Below are positions 9,994 through 42,994 of a DNA stretch of 64,000 bases, in pieces; position 1 is the stretch's first letter; the number at the start of each line of letters is the position of its first letter. The DNA comes from Gonapodya prolifera JEL478 (taxonomy: Eukaryota > Monoblepharomycota > Monoblepharidomycetes > Monoblepharidales > Gonapodyaceae), in NCBI GenBank assembly GCA_001574975.1, contig KQ965878.1, positions 21,497 to 85,496 of the forward strand. Direction: 5' to 3'. Both the position numbers and the translations under genes were made by a program. The notes under the pieces were generated by a model. That model did not search any database and was not told the DNA's origin. It was given only the letters and a program-made list of their open reading frames with translations.

Positions 9994-12900
9994 ATGACGA
10001 GCGACAGCGGGCATCAGCACCGTGCGAGTGGACTCAGACAGGCGAACAAGAAGTTCAAGTCGAAGCACGCGAGCAAGGGGAGTCTCAGGGAGAAGACAAA
10101 GGGTGGGTCTGAATTCTTGCCGAGCGACGGTTGTCTCCTCCCATTCCCTCCTGCTACCCCGCTTACTATTCGCCTATCTCATATCCACCACTCATTTCTC
10201 CCCGCCAATCCATCAGGAAAGGTCGAACGTCCGCTCCACCACCGATCCCGCATCACATCAGTCTCCGCAAAGGCATCCGTCTCGTCCGCCCAATCATCCG
10301 CAAAGGCAGACCGCCGAAACGCAGCCAAGGTCCACCAACGGTCAAAGCGGCAATCTCTCGTCGCGCAGAACAGAGTCTTTGCACCAGAGTGGGACAAGAA
10401 GTCTGGCGCGCCCAAGATTGTCGCAGTCGTGCCACTGTGCCCCGATGTCAATGCGACGAACGTTGTGGAGACTGTTTGGAAGAGGTGTCTGGGAAGTGGG
10501 CTGGATGGGCCGACAGTCATGGATGGGTCGTCTGCAGCCATGGATGTCGAGGAGTTGGTGATGTTCAAAAATGGGATTGCTGGGCCAGTCACATTCAAGT
10601 GAGTTTGTGGGGGTAGGTCGAGCGACGGAGGACTCCGAGGCCTAAACGCCGCGAGGCGCTGACCGAGCACCGAGCCGAGCGAGGCTGTCCGCCGGAGGCG
10701 AGTGAACCGCGGAGCGCAAATGACAACATCCCGGAGCGCATACTCCCACCGGAGGCGAGTGAACCGCGGAGCGGAATGTTCTACGTGGAGCGACATCGAG
10801 GCGCAAGCGCGACAGCCCTGACCGAGGACTCCGCCTAAGCCAAAGAACAATTCGTGTACTCGTAGCTGCGCGACGATGATTGACTGACCCAACTCTTTCT
10901 GGCCTTGCTTCCCACCAGCGTCCCATCCCACCACTCCCGCTTCCAATTCCTCGCCCTCCCGCGCTCCACACTCGCCATCCTCGACGCGTGCAAAGTCGCA
11001 GACTATGTCATATTTGTCCTCTCCGCGGTCGAGGAGGTCGATGCGTGGGGCGATAAGGTGCTGGCGGCGATCAAGGCGCAGGGTGTGGGGACGGTTGTTG
11101 GGGTTGTTCAGGTGTGTAAGGGGGGGTGGGGGCGGGGGGGAGGCGAGCCCCGCGAGCGCAGGGAGCACCGAGGCCTAAGCGCCGTTAGGCGCTGACCGAG
11201 GAGTCCACCGGAGGCGCATTGTCTAACGCGGGGCGCTTATACCCGGGGGTGGGGTGGGGATGTGGAATGGATGATGCGTGCATATGAGATGGATAAATGG
11301 ACGACGTTGCTTGAGGCCGCATTGATACACATGTTGGATGACCGTCTACGGACACTGCTCGTCTGGAAGTCCGGAACTTTCAACGACTAACGCACCTACC
11401 CTCCCCCAAACCCTATACTAACCCACCACTCCCAGCACCTAACCACCACACCCCCCAAGCACCACCCCGGCATCCGCCGCTCTCTCCTGCTGTACCTTCA
11501 AGATCACTTCCCATCCTACGCCTCCACCTCCTCACGCCCCTTCGCGCTCGACGTTCTTGCGGACGTGGACACGCTCGTGCGGACGTTGGCCACGCAGCGG
11601 ATCTTACAGGTCGGGTGGAGAGCGGGGAGGAGTTACCTTGTGGGTGAGGGGGTGCAGTGGGTGAAGGATGAGGAGGAGGGTGGTACGGTGAAGGATGTGG
11701 AAGAGGAAGGGGACGAAATGGGGTTGTTGAAAGTTACGGGGTGGATCAGGGGTCGCAATATGTGCGCGAATAGGTTGGCGTATCTTGTGGATGGAGGGGA
11801 CTTTGCGGTGCGGCGGGTGAGCTCTCTCATTTTGCCCCCGTTTTGTCGACCTCGTCCGCACGTACTTCACTGACGCCTTTACGCCTACCAACCAGTTCGA
11901 GACACCCGCGGACCACCCTTCCTACCTCCCTCGTCACACCGCCACCTCCTCAACAACACCAACCATCCTCGCACTTCCCGACCCCTCCCTTCGGGACGAC
12001 CTCGTCTCAGCTAACCCCGTCGACCCACTCGCACAAGAGCAGACCTGGCCGACCGACGAGGAAATGGCCGGGGCCGGTGGCGTTGGCGCGGGTATGGACG
12101 GCGCCAGTCGCATGGGGGACGGGACACAGAGTCAGGCTGGGGGCAAGGTGAAGAAGATGCCCAAGGGCACGTCGACGTACCAGGCGGCGTGGCTTGTTGA
12201 CGAGGAGGGTGAGGATGTGGAAGATGAGGAGGAGGACGAGGAGGGAGATGTTGGAATGGGCGGAGCTGAAGCCAGCGCTCCGGACGCCAACGAGGACGCA
12301 GAGAGTGCAAACGAGGAAGACGGCGATCCTGACGGATGGGAGTCTATGTCGTCCGGGTCCATCCCCTCCGACGCCTCCGACCCCACCGACGTCGGGCCCG
12401 CATCCCGTGACCCGCCACCGACGCGGGAAGAGCAAGCAGCGCTTGACCTTTCCCACCCCGACGAGCTCGACACTCCGCGGGAGAGTCCCGCCCGAGTCAG
12501 GTTCGCAAAGTACCGAGGGTTGGCGGACCCCCGGACGAGTGGATGGGATCCGTACGAGAATTTGCCCGAGGAGTACGGACGGGTGTTTGCGTTTGAGGAT
12601 TGGAAGAGGGCGCGGGGGTCGGCGATGGCGCGGGCGGGGAGAGAAGGTGGGGACGGGAAGGGTGCCAAGGGGGAGGTGAAGAAGAAGGAAGGGGATGGGG
12701 ATGGGATGGATGTGGATGAGCAAGAAGGTGTGGTCAAGAACTGGGTGCAGGGCGGTACGAGGGTGACGGTTGTATTAGAGGGTGTGCCCAAGTCGTGGGT
12801 TGGTGAGTTCTCTGCTTTCGTTTAGGGAGGCGCATCGTGGTGTCGAACTGACCGGTGACGCTTTCGCACCTCAGCCGCCCGCAAACCATCCCACCCCATC

Positions 12901-13872
12901 TTCCTCGTCTCCCTCCTCCCACACGAACACAAGTACTCCCTCTCGCACGCCCACCTCGTGCACCACACGGACCACGCCTCGTCAGACCCCATCAAATCCA
13001 AGGACCCGCTGATCCTCCAAGTCGGGTTCCGGCGCTTCACCGCCGCGCCTGTGTACTCGGACCCTGGGCAGGGGAGTAACGGTGTCGCGCTGTTGAGGCG
13101 GTTCATGTACCATGGTGGCGAAGGGGAGGAGGATACGAAGAAGGGAGGACGGAGGGGTAAGGAGGGCGTGGTGGCTACGTGGTTCGGGCCCGTGTGTTGG
13201 GATAAGACGGGCGTGTTGGCGTGGAAGGTCGAGAAGGGGACAGGTGTGTGGACTTACTTGGTTCTGTTCTGCGATGAAACAAATCGAAATCTCACCGCGT
13301 GTTTCCTCATCCCCAAGTCAAAGATACACCTGTATTAGTCGCGATTGGAACGTCGATGCCCTCAGACGTGACACGTATCATTGCCAAGAGGGTTGTTTTG
13401 TCGGGACACCCGTACAAGATCAACAAGAAGACGGTACTTTCTTGCTGTTTTGTACGTTTTCGCGACCGTATTAATGTGCTGATAAATTTTGTTCTCGCTC
13501 GCTTCAAGGTCGTCGTTCGATACATGTTCTTCAACCCCGAAGACGTGGACTACTTCAAGCCTGTCCAGCTCCGCACCAAGTACGGTCGCAGTGGTACCAT
13601 CCAGGAGTCTGTCGGTGGGTTGTTACTTTGACTCGAGCCCCCTCGGTTTGAATTCGTCTTATGTCGATATCTTCATCGCCTCCCCAGGTACGCACGGACG
13701 GATGAAATGTCTCTTCGACGGTCCGATGAATGCACAAGATACTGTGATCATGCCGCTGTATAAGCGAGTGCACCCGCGGTGGGGTACTGAGGTGTACAAG
13801 CCAACGGAGCCTATGAAAGTTGCAGGCGAGAAGGGTGAAGGCGAGCAGAGAGTGATGGCGCGATGGGATTGA
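9994..13872 (+). CDS. TSR1: Ribosome biogenesis protein TSR1
   Basis: TSR1 is a GTPase-like factor needed for late 40S pre-ribosome maturation. Nine exons join in phase to 915 residues: 9994-10102, 10217-10598, 10919-11111, 11436-11816, 11896-12802, 12875-13243, 13318-13433, 13509-13614 and 13688-13872. Family signatures include the N-terminal KFKSKHASKG box, PKIVAVVPLCPDV, the acidic centre with MPKGTSTYQAAWLVD, RFAKYRGLADPRTS followed by WDPYENLPEEYGR, and the C-terminal GFRRF, RVVLSGHPYK, VRYMFFNPEDV and GTHGRMKCLFDG blocks. It lacks a classical P-loop, as expected for TSR1 compared with BMS1. Introns 2 and 3 each carry copies of a GC-rich hairpin repeat. The middle contains a long Glu/Asp-rich segment. 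Confidence 0.95.
10610..10850 (+). repeat. Intronic GC-rich hairpin repeat, TSR1 intron 2
   Basis: The copy begins ggactccgaggcctaaacgc and continues into a GCGA-loop hairpin (cgcc-gcga-ggcg). It is followed by ctgaccgag and two copies of a ccggaggcgagtgaaccgcg word. Related copies lie in TSR1 intron 3, in intron 2 of the gene at 20033 and, on the minus strand, in PELO intron 2. In all four the repeat is in the sense of the host transcript. Confidence 0.75.
11140..11240 (+). repeat. Intronic GC-rich hairpin repeat, TSR1 intron 3
   Basis: This copy has ccgaggcctaag followed by the perfect hairpin agcgcc-gtta-ggcgct, then gaccgaggagtcc and accggaggcgc. It is sense with respect to TSR1. Confidence 0.75.
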
Positions 13873-14454
13873 TATTGTGTGTCTAAGCGTGTATTGCTAG
13901 ATGAACGGCTTGATTGTGGTTTTGTAAAAGCCTTTGTATCGTCTCCTTTTTCGCTCCTTCTTTTACAATATGTCACTTCGGCTATCCCCCATTCATTGAC
14001 CTCTCGAACCTTCCCTTGAGCTTCTCTACTCCACTTGTTCCTTCCTTGCAACTGAAACTCTCATACATGTCGAACTTGCAAGGGCGATCCTGCTGATGTC
14101 GGTGATGGAGATAGTCCAGGATCGTGGTATGACAACGGAAGGGACTTTGGTATCTGTACTTCAACTTCCGGCAAAAATCGTGATATCAACGCGATGCTGT
14201 CTGGCTCTGGAGCACATGAATTGGTCGGGCATGGAGCGACCCTTGCGAGGGTGGTGCGACGTCCGTCATCAACATCAATACTGCGGAGCCAGGTCGCGAG
14301 GAACGAGGGATCCAGCTTGGGCTTTTGGGAAGAGCTTACGGCGGTTCCACGGTGTTCCAATCGGAAATTCAGAAACGTTGCGCGGACTTTTACATGAGCG
14401 ATATCCGAATCTATGCATCGGGGTACATGTTTCCTGTTCGGAAGCAGGGTGTAG

Positions 14455-14898
14455 GATGTCCCTTTTCGTCCGGACGATACGAAGATTGGTAAATTTGAAG
14501 ACGTAACATCTGGTCGAATCTCTCGAGACGCCGCGGTGGACGCCGACAAGCTATGTTCCACTTACTTGTCTCTTAAGTCGTGCTGGATGTGTGGACGTTA
14601 CTTCCGCGACGTTCACCTTGGGTTGCGTGAGTACGATGAGCGATACCGGACATCATTTGCAGACGACGATGATGACGAAGTTTTTGTTGCTGAGGAAGTC
14701 GTGGTTGATGGTGAGTGTGTCGGTGTAAAGCATTCTTTTGAGACGAGTCATAACCGCTAATATTTTTTGTCCGCAGCGGTTGTCGAATACTATCAATGCG
14801 CTTTGTGTCGCCGTAAGATCAAACTATGTCAGCATTGCCGAAGCGGGTCCGGGGGATACACCAATGCGGGAGAGTGGCACTGTGAAGCGTGCAGATAA
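14455..14898 (+). CDS. Cys-rich putative zinc-binding protein, C-terminal part
   Basis: Two exons read in phase, 14455-14710 and 14777-14898, joined across a GTGAGT...CGCAG intron. The product contains SCWMCGRYFRDVH, an acidic run of five Asp residues, and then a tail with three CxxC pairs (QCALC, LCQHC, HCEAC) ending at TAA. CxxC spacing of this kind usually binds zinc, in the style of RING, PHD or 3CxxC folds, but I cannot assign a family. The exon appears to start after a tag acceptor at 14452-14454. Upstream exons probably exist in 14096-14420 but their frame is unresolved. Confidence 0.5.
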
Positions 14899-15568
14899 GG
14901 AGGCTAGTCGATTGTAAACGGGAACGGCGAGCTCAAGCCGATACCTAGAGCAGGGTTAAATGGTGATGCACGGCTAAAAAGGCACACGTGTGATCTCGAG
15001 ATCTCGCATGAGGGTCACATCGGGAGACAGTGGAGATTAAGACAGAGACAGACGCTGGCACATGAATATACTCTGCGATTTCTCAACGGTTTTCCGTATC
15101 TCGGTGAGCTGTTTTGCGCACTTGAGAACGTTGTGTTTTGACTCGCCGGGTTGCGGAGCGATATCGCAGACCATCGGGATCGCTCCGTTTTCTTGACTCG
15201 ACGGGGAGAATGAAGTTGATCTTTTCGCGCAGCGTGTATTTGTATAAATACAACGTTACCTCGGGAAGAGAGGACCCGAAGTGTCCCTGGATTTCGGCGC
15301 CCTGTATCCGAGCTGCAAGGTCATCCCACAAGATTTGAGCCAAGAGAACGTGACAGACCTTCGCTCTCACCTCGCACTTTCGTGCTTCTGAGACTGCAGC
15401 TCCGGATCCCAGAACGCTACGGGCAATCGAGAGCAACCACTCGCGGAGTTTCACTTCCAAGACACATCTTTACAGCCTAACAAACCGTCACTGTGGTAAG
15501 CATTCGAAAGGCGCGGAATCGATTGAATCCACCAGATTCATTTTGACAATGCCTTTCTCTCACCATAG
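14899..15568. other. Mostly unassigned; one weak minus-strand open frame
   Basis: A minus-strand frame at 15083-15460 (125 codons) starts MEVKLREWLLSIARS and looks protein-like for its first 85 residues, then becomes low-complexity basic. It has no recognisable family and may be chance. Nothing else is supported. Confidence 0.25.
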
Positions 15569-16790
15569 ATGGCACTCCTTCGTGTCTTACCTGCTCGGGG
15601 TCTCATCCTAATTATCGCGGCGTTCTTGGCCCTGGGCTTCGAAAGATCGGTCTCCGCCGCTCCATCGTCCAAGGCAAATGCAGTGCAAATCGACGCGGCG
15701 CTGACAAACACGATCCTCAAGTACTTTTCGTATGCAAAAGCGTCGAGTTGTTCGGTGAGTTTCGACGTCACGTCACCGCCCTAACTGGGACTCGATCTGC
15801 ACGTTACCGGCTCATCCACGTGCATTTAATTTCCTTACGACTCACCGCAGGTCGGTCTGAACAACAATACCTGGGCGTGCGCATCCGCCGTCTGTTCTGG
15901 CAACTCGGTCGGCACCAAAGTCCTCGGAGAGCTCTCCAACCCTCTTCGCGAGCAGGGTTACTCTGGCTACGTGGCGATTGAGCCCGACGGTGCCACTGTC
16001 GTATTCGCCATCGAAGGCACCAGAAGTGCCGTGGACTTTTTGTTTGACGCATCCTTGACGCCGACATTTGGCGTGCAGGATTACTTCCCCGATGCGCCGA
16101 TTTTGTCTTCGGCGCATTCGGGCTTCTGGGCGCTGTTCAAGGCTGGAGTCCCATCCATTCAGGTCGGTATTCTTTGCAGATTGTTCCTAGCATTTTCTGA
16201 TCTTTGATCCTGTCCGAAAAAATATCACCTACACCAGTCTTACATTGACAACGTCCTCCCTCAATACCCCAACGTCAAGACTGTCGTGTTTGCCGGCTAC
16301 TCCCTTGGCGGCATCCTGCAGAACCTCAATGCCGGCTACTTCTACCCAAAGCTCTCGTCCCGCTACAGTGTCAAGTCATACATCGTCGCCCCCGCGCGCA
16401 CCGTCAACGACGTCTTTGCTAAGTACCTCTCGGCCTCCCCTGCCTACGCCGAGGGGTCCTTCTACCGCGTGATCGGGCGCAAGGACATCGTGCCGCGCAT
16501 TATCACGCCGTGGGCACCGACGTTCTACACCCATTTGGGGACGGAGTACTTTGTGGACGGTGAGGCTGGAGTGACGTCGCCGATATACAAGTGCCCCTCC
16601 CCCGGTGTGGGGAAGGAGAACCAGTACTGCATGAACACCGTGACACCGTTTGAGCTCAGTGTCTCTCCGGGACACACCAACTACTTCGGTGAGTGTTTTC
16701 TGCTAGGCACTTGTTCGGTCCCACTCACATCAACTAAATGCCGTGCTTCTCATGGACGAATCCACAGGAATCTCCGGTTGTTCCAGTTAA
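15569..16790 (+). CDS. Secreted class-3 (fungal-type) lipase
   Basis: Probable extracellular triacylglycerol or ester hydrolase with an alpha/beta-hydrolase fold. Four exons, 15569-15754, 15851-16162, 16238-16688 and 16768-16790, give 323 residues. A signal peptide is evident (hydrophobic LILIIAAFLALGF, then a small-residue cleavage region). The core shows FAIEGTRSAVDF, the place of the family's oxyanion-side GT motif. The nucleophile elbow is GYSLGG, with Tyr where GHSLGG is commoner. A candidate acid lies in GRKDIVPR and the catalytic His in PGHTNYFG close to the C-terminus. Cysteines near the N-terminus and in CPSPGVG/YCMNT could form disulfides. The last exon adds only seven residues before TAA. 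Confidence 0.9.
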
Positions 16791-17090
16791 ACTTTCGCCA
16801 GGAAAGGTTTCACCATGTCCCAGTAAAACGAAAATGGAAGGAGTGAATGCCGATTTTGTAGTTATTTACATATGTAACTCCGCGCCGATCGCGGTTTCTG
16901 GAAAACCCGAAAAATTATGTTTTGAGTCTTGAAATCGGATAACGTCTGAGATCCGTGCGATATTATGACTATCTAATGACTTGGTGGTCACAGCTTTTCC
17001 CGGAACATTTTACTTACCTTCTATTGTTTCCTTTCTGCCTCCTTATTACATTACACTAACTTAGACCTTTAACTCCGTCGAACAAACTCT
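16791..17090. other. Lipase 3' flank, no gene seen
   Basis: AT-rich sequence following the lipase stop; presumably its 3' untranslated region and the convergent end of the minus-strand fragment. Confidence 0.4.
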
Positions 17091-17320
17091 TCATCTTCTC
17101 GAAATCCTGCCCGACTTTATCGCCCATAAAACCCCGACGGCAGCAACAAACGACATTCCAGCTGCAACGTTGGTGTTGGTGAACGGGGCGGATTTCTTGG
17201 GTTTGGCATCATGGGAAGGCACCGAGAGCGTGAACGCTGGGGCCGGGCGGACTGGCGGACTGGCGGGACTGGGATGATGTTTGACGCTGTCGGTACGCCC
17301 GCCTCTTCCACCACCACAGA
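17091..17320 (-). pseudogene. Truncated copy of the 3' end of the two-anchor membrane protein gene
   Basis: The minus-strand frame keeps FTLSVPSHDAKPKKSAPF and then jumps directly to a C-terminal membrane segment ending WAIKSGRISRR. The full gene at 17692-18543 has FLLSAPSEDAKPKKSVPL, then about 90 residues, and then WAIKTGRFSRR. The copy therefore lacks the intervening segment and the whole N-terminal half. Its 3' flank also resembles the parent's (cattcttctcgaaa-type words). I infer a tandem duplicate with an internal deletion. Confidence 0.75.
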
Positions 17321-17691
17321 ACCTTTGGTCAGTGTGGACAGAGCGCACCAACACTAAACCAAAATTCTTGCCTAAAATCCAGTGATTCAGGGACAAATAC
17401 ATTGGTATATTCCATAACTCACACTATATTTGACGTGGAGTGCGCACAGGCCACAGTTTGCAACGATTGGCTCACTTTCTTTATCGGGCAGATGGAGCTT
17501 CATCTGCATCCGCCGTCGAGGAGAAGCATAAGTACTGCTTCTCCAGTATGGTCGCTCCAGGTCGCAGCGTGCTTGGAGACTGTCAAGAGTCTAGCATTTT
17601 GAAGGTTTCCCTCGACACCTATTCTCTCTCGTTTCCTTCTCCCTCGTTACATAAACTTACACGCTCAATCATCTCCTTCAAACGCTGCCCT
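17321..17691. other. Unassigned spacer between the two related copies
   Basis: No open frame of recognisable family. It presumably holds remnants of the duplicated 5' part and the 3' flank of the intact gene. Confidence 0.35.
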
Positions 17692-20032: not shown

Positions 20033-21675
20033 ATGCGAGATAGTGGGCTGCGACGGGGTGGACGTGGACGTGGACGTGCGCTGGCCGGTGCCGTGCTGCT
20101 GGCGCTTGCGGTGCTTGGAGTCGCAGGGTCGCCAGTCGCAGTCGAGCGACGGACGTGGCCGCGACACAAGTGAGTCGACTCTGCCCTTACCGTCGTCTTT
20201 TCCCTGTGCAAACGTCTGGCTCTCCCTCCCNNNNNNNNNNNNNNNNNNNCCCGTGAAGCCCCCGCCCCGCACACATCGCCAAACGTGCAGCCGCAAATAT
20301 CCCCAAGAATGGGCCCGACATGGTCACACTTTGTACAGAGGTCGGGGCGTATTTCGGGTTCATGCCGTCCAATATTTCCTGGAATGATTATACGTGGGGG
20401 AAGAATAGGGATAATTCTATCAAGGCTTGGTGAGTCTTTGCGAAGTCTGGAGTGCAAAGCACGGAAGACCGAGCTGTCCGACCAGAGCGAGCATAGCGAG
20501 TGGAGGTCGGACTCCGAGGCCTAAGCACCGTGAGGTTCTGACCGAGTCCGTCCGCCGGAGGCAATTGATCCTGCTCGAAGCACGAATATTCCACGCGGAG
20601 CGTATTCTACCTGCCGGAGGCGAATGACCATGCACCATACTGACGTTTGTTCCTCCTCCCACGTCGTACCAGGTGGATCGTGCAAGGCTGCGACTACATC
20701 GCCTTCTCTTGCAACGCCCTCCGCAAGTCCTTCAACGCCACGTCTCTCGCGCAACCTGGCGCTATGCCCGCCAAACTCATCAGATGGTGGGCGTCCATGG
20801 ATTGCGACAACAACAACGGGACCGACGCCGTGCTCCCGACGGCCATGATTGGGAACGTGCTGTTTAACAAGACGAATCCCATCCCGACGTATGCTGACCC
20901 CAAGTTGATCAACTTGCTCACGCCGCAATTGCCCTGGGGTGGTGCACCGGACGATCCGCCTGCAAGTTGGATCAAGGAGAACGAAGTGTTTCTGATCGCT
21001 GGTGGACTAGGTTTACTTTACATCACGGGCATGTCGCTGTGGGGACGCCAGCTCAAGAACAAAAAGGGTGGAGGCGAGGGTGGTGGCGGTGCAAAGAAGG
21101 GCGGTGGTGACAAGAAACCCGGCGGTGGTGGAGACAAGGGCGGCGGAAAGCCGGGTGGCGAAGGCGGTGGAAAACCCGACGGCCCTCCCCGCGGGGACCG
21201 ACCACCCCGAGACTCGGACCGCGGAGGCGACTTGGACCGGCGCGACTCGACCCGCTCCACCAACGGCAACCTCCGCCGTCAAGACACCCTCAGTTCCGAT
21301 CCGCGCATGGGCTCCTCCCGCCGCGGCGCCCCGGGGGGGTTCATGTCGCCCAGCATCGAGAACTTCCCTCGCTCCCCGTTCTCGCGTGGTGGGCCCCGGA
21401 GCGCCGCCGGCCCCTCGTCCCGCCTCCGAGAGGAAGCCGAATTCATCCCCGACGACTACGACCTGCGCGACCCAGACGACGACATGACGCCCATGGTATC
21501 CGTGCGCGGTCCTGGTGGGAGCAGGGAGCGGAGTCGCAGTCGGGACAGGGATTATAGTAGGCGGTTGTATGATCGGAGAGTGGAGGATGAGCCGGATGCA
21601 GATTATTCGATTGGAGGGAGGGGGGCGGGAGCGGGGAGGGGTGGGGCGGGTGGTGGGGGTTCGAGGCGGTATTAG
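20033..21675 (+). CDS. Unrecognised type-I single-pass membrane protein with Gly/Lys/Arg/Ser-rich cytosolic tail
   Basis: Three exons, 20033-20169, 20259-20429 and 20673-21675, join in phase to 436 residues. An N-terminal signal or anchor (ALAGAVLLALAVLGVAG) precedes an ectodomain of about 160 residues. It contains Cys residues in MVTLCTEVG, VQGCDYIAFSCNAL and MDCDNNNG, plus NXS/T sequons (PSNISW, KSFNATS, FNKT). One transmembrane helix follows (VFLIAGGLGLLYITGMSL). The rest is a low-complexity tail of Gly/Lys repeats, then Arg/Ser/Asp-rich sequence. I know no family with this layout. Intron 1 contains a 19-base N gap at 20231-20249, so its acceptor is uncertain. Intron 2 carries the GC-rich hairpin repeat. 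Confidence 0.7.
20231..20249. other. Assembly gap (19 N)
   Basis: A run of undetermined bases inside the first intron of the gene at 20033-21675. Confidence 0.99.
20450..20640 (+). repeat. Intronic GC-rich hairpin repeat, intron 2 of the 20-kb membrane-protein gene
   Basis: It reads ggactccgaggcctaag, then a hairpin cacc-gtga-ggt flanked by ag/tct, then gaccgagtccgtccgccgg. The outer words GGACTC and GAGTCC can pair. Relative to the TSR1 intron 3 copy one stem pair has changed from G-C to A-T on both sides. It is in host transcript sense. Confidence 0.75.
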
Positions 21676-31435: not shown

Positions 31436-31525
<90 letters not shown>

Positions 31526-31651: not shown

Positions 31652-31849
31652 CGTTGCGTCCGATCGGCCTTCCTTCCAGAGGCAGTATGTGAAATGGAGC
31701 ACAACTGTGGTCACTAAGACAAGACTGATACATTTTGAATACACTGCAAATGTATCCTCTTCATATTTGAATTTTTCGAATAGCAAGTAAATAACTCAGT
31801 ATAAACATGATGTTTAGGGATAAGCGCTCCGGTGATGGTTCAAAGCTTG

Positions 31850-32300
31850 TGATTTCACCAACAAACAGTGATTCGAGGTACATAGAGACCAAGTGCAACG
31901 TCAGGAGTATGGTTGTCCACCTGTCTCAGCTGATGTCGTCCACCTATCAAATTCCGCCGTCACGGCACCCTTCCGCGGTGGAAGGGTGAAGGAGAAAGGA
32001 ATGATAAAGAGTTCGGTCGCCCCAGCATTCGGTACTGCGCTTGTCAGTCGCGATCAGCATATCTCCAACTTTTCCAGTCGTATACGTAGTGCAGCGCTAT
32101 CGTAGTAAAGTTCACCAAGTTCACAACTGACCACGTCTGACCTGATCCACACAACCAAACCGACAGGTATACCCCGCCGAGCCCCTCACATCGCATATCA
32201 CTTCGCGACCAATTTTTCTTCGGTCGACGAACCGGGCGCAGTGTGGATTCGTCGGGTTGAGGTGAGTGGTGTTGGGGAACCAACAGTTGAGATGCCGGTC
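31850..32300 (-). pseudogene. Decayed ANKRD39-like copy upstream of the left MFS gene
   Basis: The block resembles the decayed ANKRD39 copy at 34970-35345: gtataccccgccgagcccct here matches gtataccccaccgaatccct there, and tagtgcagcgct matches aagtgcagcgct. Short coding echoes survive (CEGLGGVYLSV versus CEGFGGVYRSV; IALHYVYDW versus ALHYAARTG of the intact gene). The right edge (ggtgagtggtgttggggaa) also matches the flank of the ANKRD39 5' fragment at 50.4 kb. No functional frame is left. Confidence 0.55.
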
Positions 32301-32545
32301 AGAAAAGGTGATTGACGCTTCGCCTTCAGTCAGCAAAATCGGCATTAGGAGGGAGACAAATAAATGATGGGAGGCATGGGGGCCAATTCTCAGACCCGGA
32401 CGCCACCCAACGCCACCCAAAAGGCCTCAGTTCACGGGTGAGTAATGAACCGGACGGTACCCCTTACATCCGAACCTTTAGAGACATGAAATCTGCTCAG
32501 ATCGCATTTGAACTTCAATAATAGAGATTCTTTTCAGTGGAACCA

Positions 32546-34485
32546 ATGGCATCGGACCTTCAAGGCTCGGAAAACCTCCCTACATCGCCGCTCGCTGCCG
32601 AAAAGGAGGACTTGGAGAAAGTCCAGGCATTGGAGTACGGTCCACCGCCCGATGGTGGATTCAAGGCGTGGAGTGTGGTTGCCTGCTACTTCCTTATCGC
32701 CTTCGTCAGCTGGGGGACATCACTGTTCAGCTGGGGCGTTTTCTTGGTGAGCCTCGTCTTGACAGCGGATGCAAGCAAGTTCACTCATTCCATTCAATTC
32801 CATTTCGTTCATTTGTTTTGCAGGGTTACTACTATGGTGCCAATGTCTTCCCGGGAGCGTCGCTTACACTCTACACACTAACTGGAGGGTTCACACTCGC
32901 CGCCGGTACTATCGCAGCCCCATTCTTGGGCAATCTTGCAGATCGTTTCGGATACCGCCCGGTCGTGATCGGTGGAGCGCTTCTCAGTGGTATCTCGTAC
33001 ATTATTGCATCATTTGCTGGTACGTTTACTACACTCGGCGCATGTGTCGAAATGCTCAGAGTTTGACTTTTGTTCCATCTGTAGGACCGGGCCAAGTGTG
33101 GATGATCGTTCTCTTCCAGGGAATTACGAACGGTGTTGGAGCGCAGGCATCATGGATGGTTGCTCTTGCCGCCATTCCCTCCTGGTTCAGCAAGAAGACT
33201 GGTCTCGCCATGGTAAGCGCGCGAATATCCTTTGTCGGACGATATCTTCATTAAACCTTACGGGCAACTTTTTACAGAGCATTGCGTTCCTGGGAAGTCC
33301 CATTGGAGGATTTGCTTTCAGTGAGTGAAAGAAATCCTCTTTTTCACATATTTCTTTACAATTCGTTTTTTATCTATCAGCTAACTTAACACAAGCCCTC
33401 TTGGACCGCGTTGGCCTCGCTTGGACTTTGAGAACTCTCGGTTTCCTAACCATTGGCGGTGAGCAAAAGAATGGTGCCAACCTTTCGCGTTACACTATTG
33501 AATTCAAACATCTCGTTGCGTTCGCAATGGTTTTTTTTTTTTAGTAATCGGGGTGTTTTCCTTGGGAATTACATCCAGAATTCCTCCTCAAGTACGTTTA
33601 ACACAACTTTCCATCGGACTCGCTGTAGTAACGATTTGCCGTTTCATCCTGTCCAGCCCAAGAAGCAAACATTCGATCCCGCAACATTCAAAGAGCCTGT
33701 CTTCATTCTTTGCTTCCTCGGAAGTATCGTATCCAACTTTAGTGCCACCCTCCCACTGTTCTATATGACATGTGAGCATCTATGTTCTCGTGACTATTNA
33801 TCTTCGGAATGATACATATCTCCGTCTCTCCAGCGTACGGCGCTCAACTCGGAATTGATAACACGAGCGTTACCTGGATTCTCAGCTTCTTGAACTTGTC
33901 AACTGTTGTGGCACGTGTGATTTTCGGGGGCCTCAACAATATCATCGGACCACTCAACATCCTAATCTTCTGCAACTTAACCGGCGGCCTAGTGGGTCTT
34001 GTAATGTGGCGCTACGCTACAACGTATGGAACATTGTTGGCCTTTTCGTTGTTGGTGAGTTCCCCAGTGCTCGGCTCTAATATTTCAGACACTTGTACCT
34101 GATTGACTCTTTGTGTACTTTTTACAGTACGGCGCTACTGGAGCACAATTCACCGCACAGCTTCCGATTGTCGTTCCTTCGATTTGGGGCTCTGAAGATT
34201 CTGCAAGCAAGCTCGGAGTTATGATGGCGTCGTTCACTTTTGGTCGGTGTCATCGATTGACTTCGCATCCGATCAACTGCAATCTTAACACAAATATNTC
34301 TTCTCGCTTATAGGCTCCATCTTTGGAAATTTCATCGGTGGCCGTATTTTGGACGCGAATACTTTNCCCAACCCGTACTCTCCAGTTGGATACAGTCAAG
34401 ACTACACCGCGGTACAAAATTACACCGGTATTATCTGGTTCATCGGTGCTGCGATTTTTATTGCAATGCGGATCAAAATTACGGG
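32546..34485 (+). CDS. MCH/monocarboxylate-type MFS transporter, left copy (C-terminus lost in gap)
   Basis: A twelve-helix major facilitator related to fungal MCH and animal monocarboxylate transporters; substrate unknown. Exons are 32546-32746, 32824-33019, 33085-33212, 33278-33320, 33381-33458, 33545-33591, 33657-33771, 33834-34054, 34128-34242 and 34314-34485, all in phase. The cytosolic start ends in PPPDGGFKAWSVVACYF, a family hallmark. Helix 2 to 3 holds GNLADRFGYRPV, and later helices include IAFLGSPIGGFAF, CNLTGGLVGLVMW and FIGAAIFIAMRIKI. The 30-N gap at 34486-34515 removes the last residues. By comparison with the decayed copy at 46.9 kb only about ten are missing. Positions 33799, 34298 and 34366 are ambiguous. 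It is the inverted twin of the gene at 48216-50155. Confidence 0.88.
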
Positions 34486-34643
34486 NNNNNNNNNNNNNNN
34501 NNNNNNNNNNNNNNNTAAGGACCTTGTTAATTCATATATCATTGTACCTAATTTACACGTTTTGATGAAGAAAAGGGTAAAAGCGGGTAAAAAGATGGTG
34601 CCAGTGCTGAGAGGCCGCCCAACTTTTCATTCAATTTATGTGC
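32590..34643. repeat. Left arm of identical inverted repeat
   Basis: About 2.05 kb that appears identical, in inverse orientation, to 48058-50111, including Ns. Left of about 32590 and right of about 34643 the two arms still align but with scattered differences. Confidence 0.85.
34486..34515. other. Assembly gap (30 N)
   Basis: Gap at the very 3' end of the left MFS copy. It is mirrored exactly by the gap at 48186-48215. Confidence 0.99.
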
Positions 34644-34969
34644 AGACACGGAAACACGGTGCGAGCTCCCCGAACCACGTCACCTACACACAGAATATGA
34701 CATCGTCGTAGTAGCAACGGTTCTTTCACGAGAATGAGGAATCGAGCGGACGAGAAAGGGCTTGCTCACTCATATTTGTGTTTGATTGGCCTTCGTTCCA
34801 GACACAGAGCGTGAAATGAAGGGTGACTGAAGGACTTCATTTGGAGTAGTCGAGGCATGGCAAGAAGCGCAAAGTATCCAAAATGCATGGCAGTGACAGA
34901 GATGATGAGAGAGCACACTTCCAGTTCGGCTGTGACACGTCTCAAAGCTCAAGGGTAAGTGGATGGCGA

Positions 34970-35345
34970 CCCATAGTAGCTTGAAGTTCCGTCGTATTGG
35001 CATTCACGTCCGCACCACTCGCCAGAAAGTATTCGACACATCTCCACGTTTCACGTCCTTACAGCAAGTGCAGCGCTGGGGTATCGCAGGATTGCCATCA
35101 TCGAGTGGTCAAATTGAAAGTCGACCGACATCGCACCAAACCCAAGACGGACCGGTATACCCCACCGAATCCCTCGCAATCGGAAAATCCCTGCCAAGTC
35201 CCTCCTGGCCGTCTTGAAGTCGCTGCTAATGCCGCCGCGTGGAATGACCGGTCAAACTCGAGTTCGTCCAGCGACTGGGTTAACGGGGTTCGGGTGGATG
35301 TGCATTTGAGGGTAAACCAGGATACTCCAGCATTCCCGTGCGTGG
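34970..35345 (-). pseudogene. Decayed ANKRD39-like copy, convergent to the left MFS gene
   Basis: The minus strand reads TRTPLTQSLDELEFDRSFHAAAL, closely matching TQTPFTQSLEELGFDRSIHAAAN of the intact gene at 45903. The first ankyrin repeat is then out of frame. Exon 2 is still recognisable near its end (ASGADVNA, TTELQAT). Insertions, deletions and loss of frame show a pseudogene. It lies in the same convergent arrangement with MFS as the intact ANKRD39 does on the right arm. Confidence 0.75.
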
Positions 35346-36557
35346 GGATCCGAGGGATATCACGGCGGGTGTGGTCACCAAAAGAAGAACGAGTCGAACG
35401 TATCGATGGTGAATAGAAGTCACAAACACGCCTTAACACGCAGCCTGTGTCACAAGTAACACCTCTTCCCTCCTTCAGTGTCGACCTTGTCGACTGCGGC
35501 ATCCGAGCTCAGGTGTACTATTAGGTCTGTGGGTGCATTGCTGCACCCGCGGATTGAGACCGGAAAAGCGGCTGCTCAGATAGCAACTCTTTCATTCATT
35601 AAGCGTTGAACCCGCCAAGTGTGCCATCGAAGCAAGAGTTTGGGGCAGAATCTTACGTTGTACGCATGAGGACGAATGGGGATTTGAGGCGGCGAGGAAA
35701 CCACGTCCAGATCCAGCTCGCCATGCACACTGATAAATACTTCCTTCTAGAAGCTGGCGTCACCCCGTGCGGCAGCGGAGTGAGATACGACGCGTTCGCC
35801 GACAGTTCTCCGTTCGCATCCAACTTTGCTTGGGCGGTGCTGGACCCATCAACCTAACAATTCTCCTCGCAGATTTGGATATTCGCAGTCTCAGAGTGAT
35901 TCTCCTGTTGCATCTCCCCTGGATTGGCGTATTGTCCGTTCGAAGTTGAACTATAAACTATTGACCGTGGTGCCTTCGTTACGAGAAGAGAACGAGAGCT
36001 TCCACTCTCGCGGTCATGCCCGTGATTTCAGTCTCACGTACAGTATATTGTCTACAGTAAGCCTCCACAGTCCGAGAGCGATAAGGGCCGGGATGGATGC
36101 GCTTGGGGCAGTGCCGCACAAAGAGTCGAATAGGGGATGGGAGCATTCACACTCCATGTCACGAGCTACACTTGGGTCTGACTTACAGGATCATTTGTCG
36201 TCCAGTCGCGAGCGGTCGATCGAGCTAGTCTTGATTGCACTCGAATGGGGACACCGGACAGATAGTGATCTTGAATCGAACAGGTGATGAACGAATGAAC
36301 TTCATTGGCGCAGTTCGCGAACCGACGTGGCGGGAACTCTCAAAGAGATGGTCGAATGGAATTGTTTTTTGGTGCAGGTTTTGAAAACTCACGAAGGGAA
36401 AGACCTATCCATCCATCCCCCCGTGAGTGTTCCCGATACAGCTGTTACGCTCGTGCCGCCTTTCTCACTCTAAACTCTACGTGTACGCTTTTTCGGCTCG
36501 GTTCACGGTGTGATTGGTTTCCAAATCTGTTCGACCAGCACAGCACAGCAACTGACG
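35346..36557. other. No supported gene
   Basis: Open frames at 35606-35857 and 35826-36287 (+) lack recognisable domains. The right edge is the RPS26 5' region with CT-rich stretches near 36440-36480. Confidence 0.35.
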
Positions 36558-37580
36558 ATGGTGAGCACACGAGAGCAGAAATCTGTTCGACACGAAGGCT
36601 CAATGAAGGATAATCTGTGGAACGGAGTAGTTAGCGGAATTTTTGGTGGAAACTTGCTGATGGAGGAGTGGTGCTGGACACAATTCACTGGGAGGACTGG
36701 ACAAGCCCCGGAGGCCTGGCTGGCTGACGATGTTTTTGCACAATGAGTTCCGGATTTTTCTGCCGTGGCGCGTTTACCTTCTCCTTGCCCGCGTCGTCTC
36801 ACAAACCTCCCGGATGTCCCCGTCTCGTAGACCAAGAAGAGAAGAAACAATGGCCGCTCCAAGCACGGCCGTGGTGCCACCCCCATCGTCCGCTGCTCCA
36901 ACTGCGCCCGTTGTGTCCCCAAGGACAAGGCCATCAAGCGCTTCCTTGTCCGCAACATGGTTGAGCAGGCTGCCGTGAGGGATTTGCAGGAGGCTTCCGT
37001 CTACAATGGTGGGTTTTCATCTCTGGGTCGAGCAACGGAGGCCAGAGGCCGGAGTTGCGAGACGCGAAACGAGGTCTCGAGTGTCAAACACGGAAGACAG
37101 AGCACCAAGACTGTCGTCGGGGGGTTGGGGGTTCGGGTTGGAGGTTGGGGAGACTCTTTATGGATGGCTCAGAGTAATCGAGGACAGCAAGAGGACAAAG
37201 ACGAAACTTTCTCTTTGTGGTTGTATTTCTAACGTCTCATTTCGCTGCCTTCAGAGTACGCCCTGCCCAAACTGTACATCAAGACCCTGTATTGCATCTC
37301 GTGCGGCATCCACTCCAAGCAGGTCCGCGTACGATCCAACGAGGGTGCGTTGTAGTTCCCGTTGTGCGTCTGTACCTTCCTCTGACCATCTCCCCCATCG
37401 CCGCATGTCGCCGGACTCCCAACTCCCTCTCCCTCCCCACGCACCCCACCAGGCCGTCGCGACCGCACTCCTCCCGTCCGCCCCCGGTTCAACAAGGACG
37501 GAAAGCGGATCAACCCCGTTGGCGCCGGAGGTGCCCCCGTTGCCGGTACCGGCGCTGCTGCGGCTCCCGCGAGGGCGTGA
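36558..37580 (+). CDS. RPS26: 40S ribosomal protein eS26
   Basis: A structural protein of the small ribosomal subunit at the mRNA exit channel. Four exons, 36558-36560, 36831-37008, 37255-37344 and 37453-37580, give 132 residues. The first coding exon is the ATG alone, immediately followed by GTGAGC; the second begins [15 protein letters not shown]. The zinc-binding and core motifs [34 protein letters not shown] and [19 protein letters not shown] are intact. The C-terminus [19 protein letters not shown] is extended by a Gly/Ala-rich tail beyond the usual end. The early intron is typical of fungal ribosomal protein genes and may support expression. Confidence 0.95.
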
Positions 37581-37772
37581 GTCGGAGTCGAGGGTGGTGT
37601 CGTTGTGTAGAATGATGGCGTGTATCGGGGATTCAATGCACATATTGTTCGCGAATTCGCTTGTTGTTTTGATGCATGCAATGTCGTATAGGCGTACTTC
37701 TCCCTACTGCCACAACTCAAAGATAAGGAAACGAGAGACAATTCTTACAAAATATAAACACAAGTACTGGCA

Positions 37773-39490
37773 TTACATCACGAGGTCGTCAAGTTGTACC
37801 CTTCCGGTGAGGTCAAGCCCAGGTCGCCAGTAAAAACCAAACACCAATCTTACTTCGCAGCCCAAGGTGGTCAACCTCCTCGCAACAATTGCTTCAGCAT
37901 TCAAAGGAAGTTCGGGCTCTGCAAGGAATGTCTGCTTCCCATCATCGTTTTCGTCATCAGTTGGGAGGTCGTTCCCATCGGGCATTTCTTCTTCTATTAA
38001 TGGTTTCCCAGACTTCGAGACCACTGTCCGACCACCATCTGAGCGTTTCACTCGTCTCAATCTGCGGTAAAGTGTGTAGATGCCTTTGATGACAATCTTG
38101 CAATCTCTTGGAACCACCTTCCGCAGACTATGTACGATGTCCGCTGCCATTCCCTCCACTGTCGACAAAAACAATGCCGTTGATCTGAGGTGACTCCGTT
38201 TCACGGTCAGACGTAGTTGTACATGCATACTAGCCAAGTGCGGTAGCACTTGCGCCATCCATCGGAGGAATTGCGCAGTATCCCAGGTTTCTACGTATCC
38301 GGCAGAATGCAGTATTGTCCAAATGCAACGTCCTGATATGGGGGTACACCATGTCCAGTGATGAAGTGAATCGGAAGGCGCTCACAGGGTCTAAGTTACT
38401 TTTCTGCAGTCCGAATGACAAATCCACCCCCAAGTCGTGAACACCAAGTTCCCTCACATTTAGGGAAGAGATGGAGTGACAAAAAGAGTGCGTTCGGCCA
38501 TTGAGATTGATGGATATACTCCTGGACGTCAAAATGCTCCACGTAGAGCAATGTTACACCAGTAAATAATTGAATTGATGTGGGAAGTCCGATGATCAAC
38601 AACCTTACAACTTGCATATGCGGTGTGCACAGTCCACGAAGCTGGGTTGTGTATGGAAACGTCAGGAATACTTCCATCAAGCCAAACAAGTAATTGTTTG
38701 GTGGAAGCAGTGTCATCCAATTCCCACGCAGCCCGTGTGGAAAGAAGACACTCCTGATGTGTTTCCAATAGCAACGACTGTGCTTCCTGAAAATGCGCGA
38801 AAGCAAACTGGGCAGCAAGTTTAACTCTCGTCACGGTCGGTGTTTTATTCGCACACTCCCCGAGGTTGGCGAGACCTCGTCTGAGTTCTTCAAGATTCCG
38901 GACGACATCCGGCACGTCATCCGTAACTGGCCCTGACCAGGAAAGCGCTGGAGACTCTTTGTAGAGCTCGACTTGATCGATGTATAGGTTCATGTTCTAG
39001 ATATGAGGTTGCTGATTTTCATGCCTGAGTCGAATAGCGCCTACGATGACCTTCGCAATCTTCTTATCCTGCGCCGCTTCTCCGAATCTTATCTGTACTT
39101 TCAGCGTGCACGATGTCCACGCCATTTGAGGGGGAGCGTTTCCGCTTCTGTGCGTCACCGTTTCAAATCGCCGCTAACGGATGATTTTCGTTGCTCCAGT
39201 TGCTCGCCATCCCACGAGACAACGATCTTACAACGTGCCAAGCGTTTTCCGTCTGGACAACCTGGGATTGCCGAGAGCGATGTGCGGCGAATGTGGTGTG
39301 AGTGGCGGGAACAGCTGTGGTAGAAACTTTTGGGGTCGAGGAGGCGAGCTATTCGGTGGAACGGCTCAAACGGGAGAGATTCCATGTAGCATTTCTGTGG
39401 AGTCCGAGGGGGACGGTCGGCTGATGGAAGGTTCGGCGATTTTGGCGCCTCAGCCGTGTCGATGGCAGAATCAGCGCCAGGATTCGACAT
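37773..39490 (-). pseudogene. Frame-broken F-box-like gene
   Basis: On the minus strand, 39490 onward includes ESLPFEPFHRIARLLDPKSF, which resembles an F-box start. About 550 codons of protein-like sequence follow, but in four successive frames. There is a stop after DLKR near 39155 and a TAG in front of NMNLYIDQVELYKESP near 39000. Frames then change near 38530 (VTLLYVEHFDVQEYIHQ) and 38240 (TLHLDNTAFCRIRR, then MAQVLPHLASMHVQ). The TLHLDN-type segments suggest divergent leucine-rich repeats. Splice sites do not explain the shifts, so I call a pseudogene. A poorly assembled real gene is possible. Confidence 0.45.
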
Positions 39491-39804
39491 GGGTCGAGCG
39501 GGAGACGCCAGAGGTGGAGGAGAGGAGACAGCTTTTCTCCGTGTTGAACGTGGCGACGAGCGTCTATGACGTTATGACCTTGGAGACTGTTCTTACTTTC
39601 TTATTATACTACACTTTGGAACATAATTCGGCATGACGCCAATTTGAGATGCCCCCTTGTCAATATACCCTCTGGTAGCACGATATTACCGATGGGTGTT
39701 TTTGGGATGATCGTTTCCATGATAAGAAGCCACATTAAAACTGGACTACGAGAAGGTATACGTTAGGCCGAATAATACAAATGAGAGACAAAGGGCGGAG
39801 AAGG

Positions 39805-40841
39805 TCAACGCGTTTTATATGAGCGTGCACTCGCGCCCGCCTTTGGAGTAGCAGTAACCCATGGGGAACTCGTCACTGATGGCGAACTTGACGTAGTCGA
39901 CGTGAGCACCGGAGATGCCGTAGAAGACCTATCTGCTGTCGAACTTGGTGCAGCAAGGCTCGAAGTCGAAGCGGGCAAGTCGGTACCGGCGGCTGTACAG
40001 CTCGCCTTCACAAAGGGGCAAGTAGTCCCCGTCGAGTTTTCTCCCAGACATTGGCCAACTGGAAGCGTCTGGCAGGAGGTGCAGGTCGTATCCTTTTGAA
40101 AGCTCGACCGTTACGAAAAACCATCAAAGCTCCACACGTGACAGTCTCACCGTGCATCGCGACATGGTGTCGCAAGTAGCCCGCCAGTATGAAGTCGGAC
40201 CACCGACGCGGAACTGGGTAGATTACTGTCGTCCCGCTTTGAGCTTCCTGAATTGCTTTGCACGTTCCGTCGGCGACATATCCCCGACTGTAGAGTGCAG
40301 GTTGGTCAGCGCTGCAGTTGCTTATCGTGAACACGTCGGCTTGAAGGACTTGGACTGAACATCGAAAGAAAGGACCAACGGTCCACGACATTAGCCAGTC
40401 ACAAGTGCATTCACCCTTTCGCGCAATCCAGCTCACAGTCCCCAGCACCCGAAGTCAACTTCCGAAGATAATTTGACCGTGCGCTCGTTACCGACGGAAA
40501 GCATCCCGACTTGACGCTCAGCGGAACCGCTTTACCCGTCGCGTCCTGCACAGGGAAGCATGTCGACTGTGTGGGACTCGCCACGACGGGGCCGGGCACC
40601 GTCGTGCAGCTCTGAATGAAGGGTCCATCCTAGAGAGCCCATGCTTAGGGGAGACCTGGTATGAGTCAGCGAAGGAGATTGGTGAGCGTTTGTTGACGGG
40701 GCGCAGTGATGCCCATTTGGTTGCAGTGTGAGACGATCCGGAGCAGTCGAACGATCCCCATTGAACGATTACGCCGACCTGAGCTTGCGTGGGCAGCGCA
40801 ATAAGAATCGCGGAGAGTAAGAGAGCTGTTGATGGAATCAT
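39805..40841 (-). CDS. Secreted Cys-rich protein with Ser/Thr-rich tail
   Basis: Four exons, 40841-40656, 40611-40415, 40320-40227 and 40092-39805, join in phase to 254 residues. A signal peptide is clear (STALLLSAILIALPTQAQ). The mature part has scattered cysteines (FDCSG, STCFPVQ, SGCFPS, DCELDC, DGTCKAI), then a compact TTCTSCQTLPVGQCLG and TTCPFVKASC block. About 70 residues made mostly of Ser, Thr, Ala and Pro end at TAA. The tail looks like an O-glycosylated stalk, but without a final hydrophobic GPI signal. Exon 3 was ended at an internal GTAATC because only that choice keeps the Cys-rich frame. No family is recognised; a secreted or wall-associated role is inferred. Confidence 0.65.
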
Positions 40842-41165
40842 CGACGTGATGGGAAATTTGACCGATATCGATGCTGCCTGAAGAACCCTGACGTGCGTTT
40901 ACTTGTGTGAAAATGACGGTGACATAATTTGAGCATTACAGTTAACGTTGAGTGAGGAAAGCATTGTTGCTGTAGATGTGGTTGGTTTACTTGATCTAAA
41001 TAGGTTGAGACAATATGCACTCGCGGAGTAGGATGTTCAAGCGGCGCGGGGTGATACTTCGGGTTCCGGCAGACACTTGTTTCTAGGGAGTCAGAGTACG
41101 CTATTTACAATAATGGAACATTGCCGATAACAAAAAGACGGGTTAGGGTTGCCTGTGACGTTGCT

Positions 41166-42994
41166 TCATTCATCATTGTCAGATTCTCCCCGTTCACTCT
41201 CTTCAAATCCAAGTCCAAAAGGTGAAAGAAAGTGAGTATTAATTCACGCCTCGGATCAGCTACACCGTCAGCACCCTCCCCAAAGACACGTACCGTCCTC
41301 ATCAATCTCCACCGCAAACGCCAGAATCGCCGCAACGCCGCCCAACTGCCCCAGCTGCTCGCCAGACCCGTGCGCGGTTGAGAGGATCAGACAGTCCCCG
41401 CCCCGGCTTTTGACACCTTCGACGAGTTCGACGTAGGAGCGGCGGGTCGGGATGTCGGCCGAGCTGGTGGGGGTGGGTGCGTAGGGTCGGGGGTTAGGGG
41501 ACCGCTCTTTGGTGAAGAGCACGTAGAAGTGCGGGATACGGCGAGACGACTCACCGAAACAACGCGTCCGTGACCATAAGCACCTCCACCTGTCCCCCGG
41601 CGTCCATCGCCCTCTTCACGTGCCCGAACCCATACCACGCCCTTCCCGGATCTTCATCCAGCATCTTCCAGAACCGTCGCACTTCCTTGGTCTCGCGGGA
41701 ATACCGCGTGTCCTGGACCCGCGCGGCGACCGAGGGGTCCAGAAGAGCTTCGGAGAGGGACGCGAGGTGCGCGGATGAGCAGTGGGCGAGAACGATTTTG
41801 GATTTGTTGTGCAGGAGGGGGGTGAGGTTGAGCCGGAGGGATGTGGTTTGGATGTAGGTGGAGAGTTGGTCCTAAACGTGGTCGGTCGGGCACGAGGCAC
41901 GAGGTACGAGGGGATCAAATCATTACATTGACAGTCGTCACTACGACGAGAACGTCACGCGCGTCAACGTCAGTAGTCACTCACTTTTACGAACCCCGGA
42001 CTGGCCAGAACGAGCACCTTGACCACCTCGAAATCCACATACTTGAGAATCGCCTGCACGACCTGCTCGAAAAACTTATCCGTCGCCTTCTCCCTCGCGC
42101 TCTGCATGCCCTTCCGTTTCCTCGGCACCCCGACCTCGATCCTCGCTCTTACAATCGTCATGCTCTCTGTCACGAGGCACACCTGCGCCAACCCTTCCTG
42201 CAACACGACGGCGGCGATGTCGGCGCGCTTGGAAGGGTCGCAAGAGTCAGACACGAGTTGCAGCGCGATCGAATCCCAGAAGGGTTTGGTGAGCGTGAAG
42301 TTGCGGTTCAGTTCCAGGTCCAGGGTGTGGTATTGGCCCATCTGGAGGAGAAATCGCCGCACCGGTCAGATGATATCATATGCTGCGGTTTTGGCGGGAA
42401 CGTGGCTCCGCCCTGCCTTCTTGTCTCGTGTGGTGAGAGAATGACCCTCGGCGAGTGCACTTCCAGCTCCGCCAACCCCTTCAACGCGTCTCAATCCACC
42501 ACCCCACCCGGTACCTCCGCGCTGTGTCATTTGCGCTTCCCGCCGGTTCACTCGCCTCCGGCGGACTCCTCGGTCAGCGCTAACGCGCTTAGACCTCGGC
42601 CTCGTTCGTAACGTCTCGCCCCCTCACCTTGACAAACTTATTCTCCTCCACATTCCTCCCCTTAACGCTCAACACCCCGCCCTGTGTATCAAAATCCACG
42701 TTCTCGACCTGAATCGTCAGCTGCATCCTGACACTCGTCTTGTCTGTCGTACCCGTCGAGGACTCGGAGACCACCTTGCGGATCGCGGTCGCGCGCAGGA
42801 TGTCAGAGTGTTGGATGAGATTGTAGGTGTGCCACATGTCCTGGAGTGGAGGAGTGGGGAGGTGGGAAGGGACGGGTGGTGGGGGTGGTGGAATGCAGCA
42901 TGGAAGGAGGAGGGGGACGCACCTCGGTTTCTTCGGGGCAGAGCGTGATGCTCCCCGAGGAGTCTTTTTCCAGATATTTACGGATGAGCTTCAT
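41166..42994 (-). CDS. PELO: Pelota / DOM34 ribosome-rescue factor
   Basis: An eRF1-like factor that, with HBS1, releases stalled ribosomes in no-go and non-stop decay. Six exons, 42994-42923, 42840-42628, 42341-41985, 41871-41555, 41463-41294 and 41200-41166, give 387 residues. Landmarks are MKLIRKYLEKDSSGSITL and EDMWHTYNLI at the N-terminal Sm-like domain, then VLQEGLAQVCLVTESMT, RKRKGMQSAREKA and FFEQVVQAILKYVDFE in the central domain. RYSRETKEVRRFWKML, YGFGHVKRAMDAGG and ILSTAHGSGEQLGQLGGVA follow near the end. The acidic C-terminus (ESERGESDNDE) is complete. There is no GGQ motif, as expected for Pelota. Intron 2 holds the GC-rich hairpin repeat in sense. Confidence 0.95.
42535..42612 (-). 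repeat. Intronic GC-rich hairpin repeat, PELO intron 2
   Basis: On the minus (transcript) strand it reads ccgaggtctaag and the perfect hairpin agcgc-gtta-gcgct, then gaccgaggagtccgccggag and gcgagtgaacc. It belongs to the same family as the copies in TSR1 and the 20-kb gene and is again sense to the host. Confidence 0.75.

Follow-up and report, generated by a model that had tools for sequence, protein, structure and literature searches.

The window analysed here is a 64,000-nucleotide (nt) stretch of contig KQ965878.1 of Gonapodya prolifera JEL478 (assembly GCA_001574975.1), and it contains four arrays of a short, GC-rich hairpin repeat, each within an intron. Two of them lie on the plus strand in TSR1. 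The first occupies 10616-10835 in intron 2 (10599-10918) and was recognised from its resemblance to element introns (introns carrying the repeat unit) at other loci; exact copies of CTGACCGAG were located at 10659 and 10818. The second, which includes a G-rich leader, is in intron 3 (11112-11435), where the similarity covers 11094-11236 and its intronic part 11112-11236. The junctions of both introns fall inside a Pfam Tsr1_G-like match. The third array, at 20440-20628 on the plus strand, was also recognised by similarity and lies in intron 20430-20672 of a gene starting near 20033; this intron was called only at the laxest of three gene-model settings, and the two stricter settings called none here. 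The fourth is on the minus strand at 42509-42619, likewise recognised by similarity, in PELO intron 2 (42342-42627), whose junction is inside a Pfam eRF1_1 match. Exact CTGACCGAG occurred at five places in the window, every one within these four arrays, which are the copies reported in an initial annotation and were all present where it had placed them.

An array consists of a leader, often G-rich and followed by GTCGAGCGACGGAGG-like modules, and then one to several units of about 70-100 nt. The modules of a unit are CCGAGGCCTAA, a hairpin, CTGACCGAG, CCGGAGGCGA, CCGCGAAGCGG and CGCGGAGCG. Tandem duplicates inside one array matched at up to 88-95% (locus L027), showing that in our sample the repeat grows locally in tandem. 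The hairpin loops of the four window copies had been read correctly as GCGA, GTTA, GTGA and GTTA. The reported switch of one stem pair from G-C to A-T on both sides is present in the copy of the gene near 20033, where the pair beside it is a C.T mismatch, and the stem of the first TSR1 copy includes an A.C mismatch; the initial annotation had noted neither mismatch. Separately, an element intron of locus L022 contains a 126-bp duplication (5197-5322 and 5343-5468, 88%) that lies outside its hairpin units.

Exact patterns were searched over the 47.56 Mb genome, with reversed patterns as controls. The pattern CTGACCGAGN{5,30}CCGGAGG had 283 matches (156 on the plus and 127 on the minus strand; reversed control, 0), and GGCCTAAN{6,22}TGACCGAG had 346 (179 and 167; reversed control, 2). 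An element sample of 316 kb was composed of the window and 40 loci taken down the CTGACCGAGN match listing, with 3 places passed over. Genes were called by a self-trained, strand-symmetric gene hidden Markov model, trained on the window and the 40 loci and applied at strict, lax and laxest settings. It was started with generic GT/AG weights, and training led it to GTGAGT at donors and to a C-rich tract with CAG at acceptors. The sample was searched with a repeat-unit profile at a cut-off of E ≤ 1e-3.

At the laxest setting, introns held 101 of the 119 profile hits, 100 of them in sense and 1 in antisense; of the remaining 18, 15 fell outside called genes and 3 in called exons, in sense. Intergenic hits were few despite the model calling 39% of the sample intergenic and 23% intron. 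Ten of the 15 hits outside called genes (L014, L037 and L043) lay 3' of an exon that is on the same strand and has a Pfam match, and the other five were at L013, L032 and L045. Two of the exon-sense hits (L021 and L043) were gene-call read-through into the repeat; the third was at L030, as called by the gene model. Exact CTGACCGAG, with 76 occurrences in the sample, was intron-sense in 38, 44 and 59 cases under the strict, lax and laxest settings, respectively, and intron-antisense in one case under all three. Of the remainder at the laxest setting, 11 lay outside genes and 5 in exons, 3 of these in sense and 2 in antisense; the two antisense ones are within predicted coding sequence and lack the other repeat modules.

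The initial annotation had described the repeat as confined to introns and always in transcript sense. Confinement nearly holds (101/119 profile hits), apart from the 15 hits outside called genes and the 3 in called exons; the sense rule holds for 100 intron hits and is broken by one real exception, in L046. It had also allowed that four sense copies out of four could be chance (1 in 8), which the sample-wide counts exclude. A tabulation of location and strand, of the kind it had proposed for the whole genome, found the repeat mainly intronic and sense in the 316 kb sample, neither mostly intergenic nor equally in both orientations. In this sample, a tandem, non-coding mini-hairpin repeat that is dispersed among unrelated genes and resides in introns in transcript sense, at about 100:1, is established.

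The orientation was checked by homology through a Pfam scan of 20 predicted proteins, which is informative where a match spans the element intron. The spanned element introns were sense in 17 cases, in 14 genes, and antisense in one (MAGE, L046; sign test, p ~1.4e-4). The sense-confirmed genes were PELO, TSR1 (2 introns), RRF, epimerase, D-Tyr-tRNA deacylase (2), EXOSC1, PhyH, FAA hydrolase, FAD_binding_3, KTI12, PHD, CutC, Pkinase and Sulfotransfer_3 (2; match just below the cut-off). The scan was uninformative for five of the 20 proteins (L015, L017, L024, L041 and L044).

A neighbour test independent of the gene model used the first 100 listed places per pattern, on contigs C1-C26, giving 199 places and 159 after merging. 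Among the matches listed, neighbours at most 1 kb apart were on the same strand in 29/29 cases. Opposite-strand neighbours within 3 kb were divergent in 8/8 cases and convergent in none; at 3-20 kb there were 3 divergent and 1 convergent, and beyond 20 kb 17 and 25. Close opposite-strand pairs are expected to be divergent if the copies lie in sense in the early portions of neighbouring genes that point away from each other. At locus L049, introns of divergent genes, 1.2 kb apart, carry the same rare hairpin variant, with a 44 nt inverted match at 97.7%. The minus-strand gene is a cytochrome b5/acyl-CoA dehydrogenase (Pfam), and the plus-strand gene we take to be INTS6-like, a reading on which its strand rests. 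As read, the inverted positions in divergent genes make the copies sense in both.

Dispersed repeats normally insert both ways and accumulate between genes. A mobile element inserting at random would not produce a sense-only, intron-only pattern; the DNA-level mobile repeat put forward in the initial annotation fits the dispersion and leaves that pattern unexplained.

Within their introns, the copies occupy the 5' side. In 41 of 42 element introns, similarity began 0-55 nt from the donor, and in the 42 it ended 36 to >300 nt short of the acceptor, the 3' parts not being common to the copies. The gap had a median of 21 nt on the donor side and 110 nt on the acceptor side (minimum 36). The non-similar portion of element introns had a median of 142 nt, and introns without a unit hit a median of 101 nt (quartiles 75 and 223). 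Comparison of the 42 sense element introns gave 3271 plus-strand high-scoring segment pairs and 0 minus-strand ones, a count that informs only on leaders and other modules, since the introns were picked for sense unit hits. As a separate observation, long introns without the element, in the window and the loci, were G-rich in the first 60 nt and C-rich in the last 40 nt; in several of them, runs of G follow the donor and runs of C precede the acceptor, and the two ends could pair.

These boundaries bear on an introner reading, in which the inserted element brings its own splice sites and gives rise to a new intron. Sense orientation would follow from it, and the onset of similarity close to the donor and the location of 101/119 hits in called introns agree with it, as does the L046 intron, which reads largely or wholly as the inverted element. 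However, similarity stops well before the acceptor and the 3' parts are unshared, so that this reading, also raised in the initial annotation, is not supported; the single antisense case may differ. Moreover, the non-similar portion falls within the lengths seen in introns that lack a unit hit. We consider it very improbable. In the available part of PMC9860276, introners resemble this repeat in having many related intronic copies and gene enrichment, and differ from it in that the repeat has only the 5' part in common and its arrays are tandem and modular.

The same boundaries touch on RNA-mediated spread, whereby pieces of excised intron RNA would be copied back into other introns by reverse transcription or RNA-templated repair, with sense kept. 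The sense-only and intron-only pattern would follow directly, the 5' portion of the introns is the common one, and alignment of the L049 copies starts at the donor and is lost after the hairpin. However, reverse splicing should carry whole introns with common 3' ends, which the copies lack, and their stems show no preference for G-U over A-C. This route appears unlikely.

Position along the gene was analysed on complete gene calls at the lax setting, in which 28/239 introns were element introns, L046 among them. Element introns were earlier in the coding sequence than the others (median relative position 0.30 vs 0.48, p=0.004; within-gene p=0.04). The bias was also seen at the stricter setting (relative position p=0.011, within-gene p=0.027).

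The exceptional antisense copy and the splice-site content of the arrays bear on another explanation, an ordinary DNA repeat inserted anywhere, of which selection leaves only the copies that splicing tolerates. In L046, a 233-nt intron of the MAGE gene (1190-1422) holds the element inverted and, judging from its sequence, this inversion seems to turn the G-rich leader into the C-rich tract and CAG used at the acceptor. Acceptor-like sites scoring >2 numbered 13 in antisense and 2 in sense over 50 arrays, and the best acceptors were better in antisense (p=0.002). Arrays also leave at least 36 nt free before the acceptor. A splicing filter is plausible but modest, given the L046 acceptor and these antisense sites. 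Against it, an acceptor above the real 10th percentile was found in 31/50 arrays in sense and 40/50 in antisense, a modest difference, and donor-like sites were commoner in sense (22/50 vs 4/50 arrays; scoring covered up to 40 nt of upstream sequence, where real donors may lie). Furthermore, intergenic copies should escape such a filter, yet they are rare (at most 5/119 hits, at L013, L032 and L045); a splicing filter cannot empty intergenic DNA of copies. Selection of this kind is improbable, to about the same degree as RNA-mediated spread.

Loops were counted in 93 of the first 100 listed GGCCTAAN-pattern hairpins, in three length classes, the other 7 being left out of the count; 90 local hairpins from a regular expression were set aside as out of register in several length classes. 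Among the matches listed, 77/93 loops had G first and A last, and departures from the consensus numbered 17/186 at outer loop bases and 42/164 at inner ones (p=5e-5). A second hairpin, GAGC-NNN-GCGAG, was searched with the triloop left free and gave 81 matches. In the 34 adjoining CCGAGG, G was first in 32 and A last in 31, and the apex was 12 C, 9 T, 7 G and 6 A. In a third, CCGC-NNN-GCGG, A was last in 59/60 and G first in 49/60. GAGC-core hairpins (34 sites, some by chance) had differing complementary flanking stems, with a mean of 2.24 pairs vs 1.29 +/- 0.16 when partners were shuffled. According to the available part of PMC4686876, extraordinarily stable DNA mini-hairpins form when a GNA or GNNA loop sits on two or more G-C pairs. 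Judged by sequence, the repeat hairpins follow this rule, with loop G and A kept, the inner base free and a G-C stem.

The stems themselves gave marginal signals. Compensatory double changes among distinct sequences numbered 8 vs 4.3 +/- 1.7 in shuffles (69/2000 shuffles reached 8), and Watson-Crick cells 284 vs 276.5 +/- 3.5. Stem cells with G-U (19) were not in excess over those with A-C (21), and this equality fits a DNA rather than an RNA constraint. Of note for the stems alone, 40/59 non-Watson-Crick cells were G-T or A-C, the pattern that single transitions in a CpG-rich stem would be expected to leave. Whole-array folding covered the first 300 nt of 50 of 51 arrays (one with N was excluded), with 20 dinucleotide shuffles each. 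The sense strand folded at lower energy in 44/50 arrays as RNA and 47/50 as DNA. Folding did not go beyond the shuffles (mean z -0.2 in sense, -0.3 to -0.4 in antisense); with z-scores near zero on both strands, composition explains the lower sense energies, which are not evidence of structure.

The structured intronic RNA suggested in the initial annotation has weak support, in that its motifs and loop rules are conserved. However, a selected RNA fold is not demonstrated, because covariation is marginal, G-U is not above A-C and folding is ordinary. The same three observations count against an element kept in introns by selection because, only when in sense, it would help splicing or expression, as do the divergence of the copies and the 211/239 introns of complete gene calls that have no unit hit. 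The sense, intron and early-gene bias and the kept loop rules speak for such an element, and CTGAC within the module, by our reading, is similar to the CTRAC branch site found close to intron ends. Overall, we regard a splicing or expression aid as quite improbable.

The reading we prefer, at a probability of roughly 0.4, is a non-coding dispersed mini-hairpin repeat in ordinary spliceosomal introns, whose new copies would arise through a process tied to transcript polarity. In its preferred form, copies would be captured or repaired on the single-stranded non-template strand exposed in transcription (R-loops), where the sense strand, when single-stranded, would fold into mini-hairpins. Intronic copies would persist because they are spliced out, and exonic and most antisense copies would be lost. 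Of the routes inferred for polarity-bound copying, this single-stranded DNA one is favoured, and RNA-mediated copying comes next. A stronger version, in which the repeat is a new mobile class consisting solely of single-stranded DNA mini-hairpins, placed on the non-template strand of transcribed genes with the polarity of the transcript and surviving in introns, is rather doubtful.

Several results weigh against the preferred reading. No mobilising enzyme was found in searches for Y1 transposase and Helitron_like_N: Y1 transposase (PF01797) had no match in the genome (its control matched 5/14), and Helitron_like_N (PF14214) had none either, with a control that itself matched 0/14. Target-site duplications and fixed ends were not demonstrated for repeat copies. 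Among introns without a unit hit, 16/314 resembled element introns, with the similarity chiefly in sense for 11 of them and chiefly inverted for 4. At the stricter setting, distance from the start codon reached only p=0.08, and a first-intron preference was not clear (9/28 element introns vs 58/211 others). The other 47/81 GAGC-NNN-GCGAG matches, farther from CCGAGG, had loops beginning with G in 5 cases and ending with A in 14; they may belong to another module. Loop conservation may partly reflect inheritance from few masters, and the ordinary folding of whole arrays counts here too. At L049, Pfam matched neither of the two pieces of the right-hand, INTS6-like gene, and no gene was called by the model anywhere in that locus.

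Rfam gave 0 matches in the window; at E ≤ 10, region 10550-11300 gave two matches (10855-10877 and 10872-10966), far below gathering scores and outside the array. As to the host lineage, Radial_spoke matches (control 0/14) and a Fungal_trans match just below its cut-off point to a probable zoosporic fungus; for a choanoflagellate, which was also considered, empty SH2 and hydrophobin searches are uninformative, their controls having matched nowhere. Among the titles and abstract openings listed by searches of open-licence PubMed Central papers, none describes such a repeat family. Bacterial repetitive extragenic palindromic (REP) elements and IS200/IS605 ends are strand-specific single-strand hairpins tied to mobility. 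The likeness to them lies in the strand-specific hairpins, and the difference in a genome without a Y1 transposase match. Sponge mitochondrial hairpin repeats and Allomyces double hairpin elements, as the available part of PMC2800124 describes them, are likewise short, GC-rich in several cases, dispersed, sometimes tandem and non-coding. Those elements are mitochondrial, come from intergenic and ribosomal RNA regions, and have loops more variable than stems, whereas the Gonapodya repeat is nuclear, intronic and sense-biased, with loop-end G and A kept. The GNA/GNNA mini-hairpins of PMC4686876, in the part available, have the same loop rule on G-C stems but are short synthetic DNAs and aptamer parts, unlike a genomic repeat family.

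With about 100 sense intron hits per antisense hit in the sample and few hits elsewhere, either copying follows the polarity of transcripts or intron content is under far stricter selection than expected, and either outcome bears on intron growth and on the influence of transcription on repeat insertion. The GNA/GNNA rule offers a structural handle on the single-strand DNA route. If the new-class reading were true, transcription itself would set the orientation and home of a repeat.

Two further stretches of the window may belong to the family. A probable leader-only fragment lies at 37026-37103 on the plus strand, in an ab initio predicted intron starting at 37009 (5 matches to element introns in sense and none inverted; depth 1). 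A possible, weak fragment lies at 4934-4998 on the minus strand, in a predicted intron starting at 4628 (6 sense and 0 inverted matches; depth 1). Similarity at 31438-31522 was not counted, since sense and inverted matches were alike, and it was taken as a simple repeat.

Apart from the hairpin repeat, the window contains a long inverted repeat, 32234-34944 and 47751-50462, about 13 kb apart, with 95% identity over 2.7 kb and a 2121-nt arm at 100%; it is presumably a recent duplication or a mobile element pair. Diverged direct repeats of 65-75% identity pair 2862-3767 with 6930-7917, 5533-5819 with 6659-6926, 4457-4670 with 8687-8900, and 5090-5334 with 9218-9472, an arrangement that suggests tandemly duplicated genes.

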